Assembly: GCA_947053645.1 (NCBI GenBank) | Contig: CAMRTM010000006.1 | Location: 1 to 49,754 of the forward strand | Length of the DNA: 49,754 nucleotides | Reading direction: 5' to 3' | From: an uncultured Bacillota bacterium | Lineage (GTDB): Bacteria; Bacillota; Clostridia; Christensenellales; UBA1242 | Part shown: piece after piece, positions 18,898-28,960 of the stretch | How the letters are laid out: each line of letters opens with the position of its first letter | Position numbering within the stretch: position 1 is the stretch's first letter | The notes under the pieces: model-generated | Told to the model about the DNA's origin: nothing | Seen by the model: the letters and a program-made list of their open reading frames with translations, nothing else | The model's database searches: none | Made by a program: the position numbers and the translations under genes

Positions 18898-21386
18898 TTA
18901 ATTTAATAATTTAAAACCTTGACCTGTGAGATAGTCATAAATTTCTTGTGAAGGTGTAAAGCCACCGATATGATTTAACCCACCTTGAATTGGGAGCCCA
19001 CCGTTCACGCCCTCTACAAGTGACCAGTTGCCCCATGCGGTTGCGTCGCCATACATGACCTTTGTAGCAGTACCATTGACTGTTCCTGAGCCGTAAGATG
19101 ATATGTTGGTTCCATTGGAACATATTCCAGCTTCACTTGTACCTGTAACCGTAACATCAATTGCATTGCTATTACTTACAGCATATCCTCTTGCTATACC
19201 ATATGCACTTTCTCCTATTATCGTGCTTTCCTTAACTGTACAATTTATTACGCTTTCTCGATCTGTATAGCCTATTATTCCTCCTACAAACGCCCCCTCA
19301 ATAGTAACGCCTTCTACTACACATTTTTCGATTGTCGTATTGTTCCCATATCCTACTACTCCACCACAACTCCCGACAGCTTTTATTTTCCCTGTTTGTA
19401 TATGTATGTTGTTTATTTTTCCATTCAATACATATCCAAACAATCCCCCATCAGGAAGTGATGTATCAACTCTTATATTATTAATCTTATATAGATTTCC
19501 ATTATACGCCCCTTCAAAAAGGTAACTTTGAGTTGTTCCAATAGGCTCCCATAGGTGTGCTTTGATATCTATATCAGCAGTCTGTTTATAGTATGCCTGT
19601 CTATCATATCTACCACTTGTGGTTTGTATATTATTATTTGTTGCATATGCAACTCGGGCTAGGTGTGCCGCAGTTGAGATTATATATGGGTCACTTTGTG
19701 TTCCATTTCCTCCGCCATAACTGTTTGCATAATACCCTTCTGTCCATGTCTTTTCTTGCCAATGGGCGTAGAGAGTTGAGTTTGATGCTTTATTCCACGC
19801 TCTTGCACTGGCTCCTGTGTTTGTGTAATACTGTGTACCACCTGTCTGTGCGTCATAGTATCCTAGGAATTTCCAGCCAGAGCGACTAGGTGGGGTTATA
19901 GCTGGCATTGCATTGTCATAGGTTGCTGTTGTGCTTGTACTGCCGCCACTGCCTCCGTTTGGATTGAGGGTAATGGTGTAAGTATTTGGTGTCCAGCGTG
20001 CATAGAGTGTCGTTGCACTTGCTTTATTCCACACCCTAGCACTGGCACCTGTGGAAGTATAGTATTGAGTGCCGCCTGTAGTGGCAGAGGTATCATAAAA
20101 ACCTTGAAAGGTATAGCCCACACGAGTCGGCATTGTTACCCCAGATGTTGGCATATTGCTACCATATGTGGCAGTTACACTTGAGGTTCCTGCGGTTGGT
20201 GTTGTCGAGCCACTACCCTTATTCGTATTTAAAGTGACCGTATAGGTATTGGCTGTCCAATTAGCAGTGAGAGTTACTGTCCCACCGTTTGTGGTAGTTA
20301 GGTTTTTAAAGTATTGTGAAGTCACTTTTGTGGAAGTGCTTGTCCATGAACTTGTGGTAGAAGATGTTGAACCATATTTTGCATAACTGGTATTTCCATT
20401 GAATGTCCAACCGGCAAAGGTGTAACCGCTACGAGTTGGATTTGAAAGTTGGAATGCAGTGTCATAGGTAGCAGTCGTAGGATGGTAGGTGCCATGAGTG
20501 CCGTTGTTTAAAACATAACTTAAGTTATATGTATTTGCCAATCTTGTTGCTGAAGCACCGATTGTATAGGTGTTGCCTGCTGTAATAGTTAAACTTTTTG
20601 GAGAGCCGGTTCCACTTAAACTTCCACTCCAACTTGAAAATGTGTATGTATAACCGGTGGCGGACGAAAGCACATATCTAAAATAATAGGTGCCCGCAGT
20701 AAGACTTATTCCACTTGTGGAAGAAAGTAGCGTGGTCTGGGAAGATGAACTTGTGCCATAATAGATTGAGGACACATTTGTAAGTGTGCCGCGTTTTATT
20801 GTCGCAGTGGCAGGATTGACTGTAACTGTTGTAGAAAGAGATGCATTTTTGTCATATCCACCTGTGCCCATGGGTGTTGTCCAATAATCCACATGAAACC
20901 GCACTGTGACACTTATAGTCTGACTACCAGTAAGCCCTGTAGTTGAAAGGGTTGCATTTTCTGTAACAGTAGACATGTCGCCACCATCCATGCTTACGAT
21001 TGAATTAGAAACCGAAATTGAATACGTTTTTCCGCCAAAAGCAACTGACACGTCTGCCGTATAAGCCATTACAAACTCGTTATCATACTCATTGAGTTCA
21101 GACTGTGAAAGTATACCCTGCGTTAAATATGAAGAAAACGTAAGGACAATATTTGCGCCAGTAGTTACCGTTGTTGCATTAGTAGAAATAGAACAATATA
21201 TCCTTGCATCCGTAGTATGTCCTAAGTATACACCTGTATTAGTAGCAGCTTCAGTTGGAGAGTCGATATTAATTTCGCCAGTATAATCTAAAACTCCCCC
21301 CCCGCGTAAGTGCCAAGCAAAAGCGCCCCTGAGAGGAAGGAGAACAAACAAACTATCATTAAACTAAGTTTTGTAAACTTTTTCAT
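18898..21386 (-). CDS. secreted surface protein with InlB B-type (Flg_new) repeats and GLUG-like C-terminal region; reading frame interrupted at a poly-G tract (21294-21301)
   Basis: Repeats such as YNLSYVLNNGTHGTYHPTTATYDTAFQLSNPTRSGYTFAGW and NTYTITLNPNGGSGGSTSTTATYDNAMPAITPPSRSGWKFLGYY; signal peptide MKKFTKLSLMIVCLFSFLSGALLLGTYA starts at 21386 in a different frame from the 817-aa ORF. Confidence 0.8.
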
Positions 21387-21394
21387 CTAATATT

Positions 21395-21400
21395 ATTATA
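21395..21400 (-). promoter_or_regulatory. -10 box 8 nt from the surface-protein ATG
   Basis: TATAAT followed by AATATTAG then ATG; no Shine-Dalgarno visible. Confidence 0.4.
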
Positions 21401-21459
21401 TACACTTTTCGACAAAAAACAAAATGTTTTATAGACAAGTATTTTTATTTGAAAAAGCT

Positions 21460-27122: not shown

Positions 27123-27668
27123 ATGAAATTTTATCATGGCTCGCGTAATCCAAACTTAAAAGAATTAAATCTGGAGCATTATTCTGGCAAAATTTACTTA
27201 ACAGACAAATATGAACTTGCCTTTATGTATGCGGCTTCGCCTCTTCGTTTTTGGAATTTTGACAGGGAAATAGATATGGTAACTTTCAGAGAAATTGCAA
27301 AAAACGGATTTAAAACTCAGTTTCAAGGTAAAAAAGCATATATTTACACCTGTGAAATCGAAGAATTTGAAAAGGATGAGAAGAATATTTCAGGACATAA
27401 TTACAAAGTATACAAACCAGTTAAGTTACAAGGCAGCCCAGAGATAATAGATGATTGTTATGAAAAGCTTATTTCCCTAGAAAAACAGGGCAGGGTTTGT
27501 TTAGAGAGGTGGGAAGATAAAACAGATGATGAACAAAAAGAGTGTCAACGAAAAATAATTGAAGCTTTTTCACCTTTTATGGAAAAGGATAGAATTGAAC
27601 ATCCAGAAGAATATAAATTGATTATATCACTACTACCGGAATTAGAAATAAAGGAGGAAAAAACATGA
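27123..27668 (+). CDS. uncharacterised protein, possibly ADP-ribosyltransferase-fold (DUF3990-like)
   Basis: MKFYHGSRNPNLKELNLEHYSGKIYLTDKYELAFMYAAS resembles YHGS...VYLT...A.YA ART-fold N-termini. Confidence 0.45.
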   Translation: MKFYHGSRNPNLKELNLEHYSGKIYLTDKYELAFMYAASPLRFWNFDREIDMVTFREIAKNGFKTQFQGKKAYIYTCEIEEFEKDEKNISGHNYKVYKPVKLQGSPEIIDDCYEKLISLEKQGRVCLERWEDKTDDEQKECQRKIIEAFSPFMEKDRIEHPEEYKLIISLLPELEIKEEKT

Positions 27669-28960
27669 ACACAAAAGTAATCAAACTAAACGGGGGCGGA
27701 ATTTTACTTCTTACAAGAGTTAAGGACGTAAACGGCGTTGATGTGGAGTTTAGATTTAACGGCGGCGCAATAAATGACCCCAAAAATAAACTTGGAGTAG
27801 CACATTTTGCTGAACACGCTTTGTGTGAGTTTACCACAAGTCGCTACACCGTGGAAGAAAGACTGAAATTACGAAGAAAATTTACTATGATAAATGGTGG
27901 AACATCATATTACATGATGAGTCTAGTATGTGCCGCCAACAAAAATATGCTTGATGAGGCTTTTGATTTTGTACTTTCCCCTATCAGCGAAATAGTGTAC
28001 AATCAAAAAGACTTTGAATGGCAATATGATATAATCAAAAGTGAAATTATAACTCTTAAACAATTTAATAGCTGGGAGGCTGATAGAGTTTACCAAACAA
28101 ATATAATTGCTGACAAACGAACTAAGCACTTAACCTCCTCACCTGCTGGAAGTGTCGAGAGTTTGGAGCGAATTAAATTAAAAGATATAGAAAATTATAT
28201 TAAAAATTATGTCACTCTTAACAACTTAACCATATCGATTTGCGGTGATGTTTCCAAAAGTAGAGCAAAAGAACTTATAAATAAATATGTGTATAAATAT
28301 ATTTCAACATCAAATATTCAAGGCATTACTTATAAAGATTTGGAAGGTTTAACAAAACCGAACTACTATTTTAGACCCTCTGTGGAAAAAGACCAAGCAC
28401 ATGTCCATTTTTGCTTTAACATTAAACCATATCGTGACTTTGATTTTAAATTGGACGCAGCAAGGGCTGTGCTAACCAAAATGTTACAAACCATGGCTTT
28501 TAATTATTTTAGAGGAGAAAAATCACTCTGCTATCGTTGTCAAGCATGGCTTGAACGCGAAGCAAAGATGTTTCAAAATACTTTGGTATTTGATGTAGAA
28601 GAAAATAATGTGGAAAAAATACTAGAAGAAATGCCTACATTTATTTCTAAAAATCCAGAACTTGATAGAGAACTTTTTAATACTATCAAAAACACAATTA
28701 TAAATACCTTTGATTTTGATCGTGACCCTATAAATTATCTAAATAGGCAAGCGATGGGAAGATATTTAGATGACAACCTTGTATATGGCGACAAATTAAA
28801 GAAGAAAATTAGAAAACATTTACACGCTGTCAAATTTGAAGATGTTAACAACCTTTACAAACAGTGCTTTAATGGCAATCCTTACATAATTATAGTTTCT
28901 AATGATGAAAAATGGAAGGACTTTGATTACAAAACTTATTGCAAAAAATTTAAGAAATAA
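27665..28960 (+). CDS. M16-family zinc metallopeptidase
   Basis: HFAEH (HxxEH) in GVAHFAEHALCEF, downstream Glu-rich helix (FEWQYDIIKSEI); 4-bp overlap with upstream gene. Confidence 0.85.
   Translation: MNTKVIKLNGGGILLLTRVKDVNGVDVEFRFNGGAINDPKNKLGVAHFAEHALCEFTTSRYTVEERLKLRRKFTMINGGTSYYMMSLVCAANKNMLDEAFDFVLSPISEIVYNQKDFEWQYDIIKSEIITLKQFNSWEADRVYQTNIIADKRTKHLTSSPAGSVESLERIKLKDIENYIKNYVTLNNLTISICGDVSKSRAKELINKYVYKYISTSNIQGITYKDLEGLTKPNYYFRPSVEKDQAHVHFCFNIKPYRDFDFKLDAARAVLTKMLQTMAFNYFRGEKSLCYRCQAWLEREAKMFQNTLVFDVEENNVEKILEEMPTFISKNPELDRELFNTIKNTIINTFDFDRDPINYLNRQAMGRYLDDNLVYGDKLKKKIRKHLHAVKFEDVNNLYKQCFNGNPYIIIVSNDEKWKDFDYKTYCKKFKK

Follow-up and report, generated by a model that had tools for sequence, protein, structure and literature searches.

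Homopolymeric tracts in described phase-variable systems

The closest described systems differ in where the homopolymer sits. In Campylobacter jejuni NCTC11168, 29 phase-variable poly-G/C loci with seven repeats or more have been reported (PMC4965091). A tract may also act from within a promoter, as found for Neisseria meningitidis porA, in which poly-G lies between the −35 and −10 boxes and variants of 9G, 10G and 11G change expression (PMC3639595). In Listeria monocytogenes, a poly(A) tract near the 5′ end of inlA puts the gene out of frame and leaves a product of a few residues (PMC2831843). Gardnerella carries a median of 20 G/C tracts of at least eight bases per genome, most of them upstream of ORFs and some of them variable (PMC11287997). 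Whether genomes with many phase-variable loci are restricted to pathogens was considered an open question in a 2025 review (PMC11868660).

The locus discussed here is a run of eight Gs (G8) found at the junction between the signal peptide and the body of a surface protein. It lies in the window, that is, the whole stretch of DNA that was analysed (49,754 nucleotides, G+C ~35%), which is contig 6 of a draft genome of 874 kb in 19 contigs (the source genome, G000). As in inlA, the homopolymer comes early in the gene of a surface protein and shifts its frame; however, the inlA tract is poly(A), affects a single gene with no paralogous family, and is not located at the signal-peptide cleavage site. 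The window tract is best read as a slipped-strand (simple-sequence) contingency locus that would be OFF, at G8, in the assembled consensus, and we give this reading roughly three chances in four.

The tract and its two reading frames

The features involved are the following, by position in the window:
21296..21303, minus strand: proposed hypermutable switch, a G8 homopolymer placed where the signal peptide meets the mature protein
21288..21386, minus strand: signal-peptide reading frame of 32 aa, from the ATG at 21386 to a stop just past the tract (OFF product)
18898..21294, minus strand: surface-protein body of 798 codons plus stop, in another frame than the signal peptide, with List_Bact_rpt (PF09479) repeats
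21395..21400, minus strand: TATAAT, a −10-like box 8 nt 5′ of the ATG
27692..27700, plus strand: GGG GGC GGA, an interrupted stretch in an M16-like peptidase gene (27665-28960), used as a comparison point

Both the eight Gs and the ATG at 21386 were found exactly as originally predicted, and the 32-residue product read from this ATG is MKKFTKLSLMIVCLFSFLSGALLLGTYAGGEF*, as had been stated. It comprises the signal peptide MKKFTKLSLMIVCLFSFLSGALLLGTYA, followed by G8 and then by the stop. Judged by inspection only, this peptide and those of the related genes described below present the basic start, hydrophobic core and small cleavage-site residue of a Sec signal peptide. Past the tract, the frame named beforehand stays open through the 798 codons of the body. 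The frame arithmetic also held, in that a tract length of 0 mod 3 fuses both frames, and L018:4471, a paralogue in G000 whose tract has nine Gs, is in frame. Regarding the repeat domains, announced as InlB-type and GLUG repeats, Pfam recovered List_Bact_rpt (PF09479), whereas GLUG was below threshold in the window protein; a GLUG domain was found by Pfam in the paralogue L101.

It had been argued that the start given by the ORF track, a TTG at 21351, yields no convincing signal peptide, and indeed no signal peptide was present in that frame. This TTG was rejected as the natural start, the conserved −10-like box favouring the ATG at 21386. From the TATAAT at 21400-21395, 8 nt before this ATG, the window gene probably produces a leaderless transcript. 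No promoter boxes were found round the window tract, which does not lie in a promoter spacer of the porA/opc type.

In the mechanism proposed, the poly-G would code for a short glycine linker right after the signal-peptidase site, and replication slippage would make the run one base longer or shorter. Whenever the run is a multiple of three, the signal peptide would be fused to the repeat protein, leading to export of the latter, and any other length would give a 32-residue product ending a few codons past the signal peptide. We infer frequent and reversible slippage within the population, with expression depending on tract length.

A gene family broken at the same point

The same arrangement of a signal peptide, G8-G10 and a long body, the latter mostly made of List_Bact repeats, was observed in at least 12 genes from four species (G000, G499, G086 and G002), each represented by one genome; the counts are those of draft assemblies. 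Two of the 12 members are in frame, and the other ten are out of frame, in every case broken at the tract:
In frame (ON): L018 and L102, both G9
Out of frame (OFF): the window gene and L097, G8; L093, L101 and L118, G9; L088, G10
Out of frame (OFF), G002: four genes, all G9

A DNA motif designed for the signal-peptide junction was too specific and matched only in G000 and G499. A box resembling TATATA(C/A)TAA was found a few bases 5′ of the ATG in the window (21387-21403) and in L018, L088, L093, L097, L101, L102, L118 and L165. Since most members share this −10-like box just before the ATG, leaderless mRNA is suggested, and the transcripts of this surface-protein family are probably leaderless.

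The recurrence of the tract in at least 12 genes of four species, ten of them broken at it, indicated that the window tract is neither an isolated curiosity nor a sequencing artefact, in line with the original prediction, which had named a homopolymer error as its main alternative. Such an error, in which the true length would be nine and the gene ON, draws on the draft state of the genome, with its 19 contigs. However, 17 other tracts were called as nine in the same assembly, and no single miscall suffices, because out-of-frame members recur across several species at lengths 8, 9 and 10; we regard this explanation as highly improbable.

Nine of the ten out-of-frame members require the same shift, and the orthologues L093 and L118 have the same out-of-frame arrangement, which would suit an event at the RNA level. 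Poly-G is slippery in principle, and through a programmed −1 frameshift of the ribosome, or through slippage during transcription, the run could release some full-length protein from DNA of fixed length. Programmed frameshifting would, however, call for a fixed out-of-frame state in all members, and the family presents mixed frames and lengths of 8, 9 and 10. The tract is in frame in L018 and L102, and also in a separate lipoprotein family (L022/L099/L113, DUF5722), in which the lipobox cysteine is immediately followed by G9 in each of three species, always in frame; in these genes slippage would be harmful. Moreover, orthologues differ in length at the DNA level, and the promoter-spacer tracts described below are incapable of acting by frameshifting. 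A mechanism acting on RNA is accordingly considered quite improbable for the window gene.

Tract number and length

Genome-level tract counts were based on pattern searches and fetched stretches. In G000, 21 G/C runs of at least eight bases were found, being 17 of nine and four of eight, with none of ten or more and a single run of seven. A dinucleotide model predicted ~3.5 G/C runs of at least eight and 0.6 of exactly nine. Given this excess and the single run of seven, the tracts form a separate peak instead of the tail of a compositional distribution. A tally over 25 genomes of the genus gave 60 tracts of G8, 148 of G9 and 25 of G10, with a very sharp modal length, mostly of nine and with little spread.

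As expected for contingency loci, these homopolymers are longer than composition predicts, and a one-base change would affect expression at their positions, between the differently framed signal peptide and body at the window locus and in promoter spacers at 13 others. Mismatch-repair loss was ruled out as a cause of high slippage, since MutS is present in the genome.

One-base differences and tract purity between orthologues

Differences in tract length accompanied by a change of frame were observed at three other loci and in the paralogous family, the orthologues of the window locus being interrupted instead. An isochorismatase-like gene is broken at G8 in G499 and in frame at G9 in G086, with flanks 97% identical. 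The gene of a PemK/MazF-domain protein has G9 in frame in G000 (L021:2645-4075) and G8 out of frame in G086 (L108), and a surface-protein gene is ON with G9 in G000 (L018) and OFF with G10 in G499 (L088). A promoter tract also differs by one base, being G10 in G086 against G9 in both G000 and G499. When viral contigs were scanned for near-identical copies differing in tract length, one match was obtained, which was uninformative.

Among the species of the G000/G499/G086 set, fourfold sites are ~41% identical and GGG codons were kept in 3 of 32 aligned cases. Orthologous tracts are nonetheless pure, as in L022/L099/L113, although those of the window locus are not, and orthologues without a tract are under-counted in this comparison because the stretches fetched outside the window neighbourhood were tract-bearing only. 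In the M16-like peptidase gene, Gly-Gly-Gly is written GGG GGC GGA in the window (27692-27700) and as a pure G9 in G499 and G086; the same three glycines can thus be coded with or without a pure tract.

At the window locus, the syntenic orthologues carry the interrupted stretches GGGAGGGGG (G499) and GGGAGGGAG (G086), and in both the signal peptide and the body share one frame. Orthologues lacking the G run and encoding the signal peptide contiguously were what the original prediction had set against itself, and this is literally what the two genomes present. The loss of one A from GGGAGGGGG yields G8, and the G8 of the window could have arisen in this way, since a tree of the three species (G000, G499 and G086) yielded neither their branching order nor a polarity for the interrupted and pure states. 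These observations would fit a fixed frameshift or early pseudogene, in which a possibly ancestral, interrupted in-frame glycine stretch lost one base, leaving an accidental pure G8 and a dead gene. Nevertheless, the body of 798 codons presents no further lesion, the window junction, GC-Gn-AGTTTTAGAT, is closer to that of the same-genome paralogue L018 than to those of the orthologues, and at least 11 other family members have a pure tract in mixed frames, so that a dead gene seems unlikely. Given that tracts elsewhere in the family are mostly pure, and that the window junction resembles that of L018, we read the interrupted stretches of G499 and G086 as tracts that would have been frozen ON by interruption.

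The phase-variation reading of the window tract is thus partly sustained, by the family, the mixed frames, and the one-G differences and tract purity of orthologues at other loci, and it is weakened by the interrupted and contiguous orthologues of the locus itself. Besides these in-frame orthologues, the sharp modal length, the shift common to most out-of-frame members and the presence of MutS count against a contingency locus.

Tracts were also noticed in other contexts. In G499 (L091, L092 and L097), G9 occurs inside histidine phosphatase, peptide-deformylase-like, NUDIX and short-chain dehydrogenase genes, and enzymes may be phase variable besides surface proteins. At L016:4001-4009, a G9 abuts the ATG of a gene for a UvrD-like helicase (701 aa), on its 5′ side, and may vary the spacing of the ribosome-binding site.

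Poly-C tracts in promoter spacers

Thirteen of the 21 tracts of G000 are found between −35 and −10 boxes, the other eight being located inside reading frames or where these begin. Twelve of these promoter tracts have nine bases and one has eight (L009-L024, e.g., L010:4009-, L019:4009- and L023:4001+). An exact TTGACA is present in twelve and an exact TATAAT in most, and one, on the other strand, is weaker. The typical element is TTGACA-aatCCCCCCCCCgag-TATAAT, i.e., TTGACA-aatC9gag-TATAAT. An ORF follows each promoter tract, in nearly all cases equipped with a purine-rich ribosome-binding site, and the products of these genes include lipoproteins (L009:4628, L017 and L019:6108), small membrane proteins and others of unknown function. 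The promoter tracts are retained upstream of orthologous genes.

The promoter pattern gave 78 matches in 32 of 81 genomes of the genus, in which the reversed pattern, searched as a control, gave 0 matches; in ~383 other Clostridia outside the genus the pattern had no match. Most spacers in the genus matches measure 15-16, and most tracts have nine bases. The usual optimal spacer between −35 and −10 boxes is 17, and the modal spacer is one or two bases below it. Each slip would shift the spacer by one base and in this way tune transcription, and the 13 tracts are probable cases of promoter-type phase variation. The original slipped-strand reading, centred on the window tract, did not include this larger genome-wide poly-C pattern.

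A tighter version of the pattern retrieved 51 stretches from GTDB, mostly from uncultured Clostridia/Christensenella MAGs and some from Mucispirillum/Deferribacterales. In the latter MAGs (L028, L030, L041, L047 and L055), an unrelated gut lineage, the TTGACA-C9-TATAAT architecture is identical and, at the loci with a listed gene, precedes a gene for a lipoprotein or a secreted protein, which suggests convergent evolution. Single matches were located 5′ of a porin-like gene in Histophilus somni (L052) and 5′ of lipoprotein-like genes in Bipolaricaulota and WOR-3 (L027 and L065). In G048 (L127-L144), ~20 copies of TTGACAAAAAATGC-G7/8-TARAATAGG (TTGACA-G7/8-TARAAT), mostly followed by a variable hairpin, look like a repeated promoter plus stem-loop, and in G072 promoters contain G10.

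Implications and comparison with known systems

These results suggest that a whole genus switches many genes through the gain or loss of a single G/C. On balance, we lean towards a programme of genome-wide stochastic expression in this genus of small-genome gut Clostridia, composed of the poly-C cassette (TTGACA-C9-TATAAT) and the leaderless poly-G family. The cassette would act 5′ of a dozen unrelated surface or membrane genes, and the poly-G family would add surface proteins that are either ON or OFF, so that, if this programme exists, every cell shows its own random surface combination. If the switching is real, many genes look broken in the consensus genomes of these organisms without being so, and chance switching partly determines what an uncultured gut lineage displays on its surface. 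The members of the genus identified by title are uncultured metagenome-assembled genomes, and with 20-30 tracts in ~1 Mb in some of them and more than 100 species in the set searched, the question of switching is directly testable in existing faecal metagenomes.

A literature search on simple-sequence phase variation in this clade returned nothing relevant. The mechanism is already known, and a genus-wide set of switches in uncultured gut Clostridia appears to be undescribed in the literature searched.

The genus resembles C. jejuni in having G/C homopolymers of ~8-11 bases in reading frames, many loci in a small genome, and putative ON/OFF states based on frame. In contrast, reversible switching was measured in C. 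jejuni, whereas the present tracts are candidate switches in unrelated Clostridia with MutS; they are also concentrated in promoters and signal-peptide junctions, unlike those of C. jejuni. A porA-like homopolymer in the promoter spacer of a surface gene corresponds to the 13 other tracts of G000 and not to the window locus. Unlike porA, a dozen or so promoters in one genome carry nearly the same TTGACA-C9-TATAAT element, with a putative effect on expression. The likeness to Gardnerella includes host association, the number of tracts and a link to surface proteins, although Gardnerella belongs to the Actinomycetota, is cultured, and had its variation observed (PMC11287997). The family of signal-peptide/poly-G genes is a feature of the present genus, and none is described for Gardnerella in the accessible part of that study; Gardnerella is a precedent outside Proteobacteria (PMC11287997).
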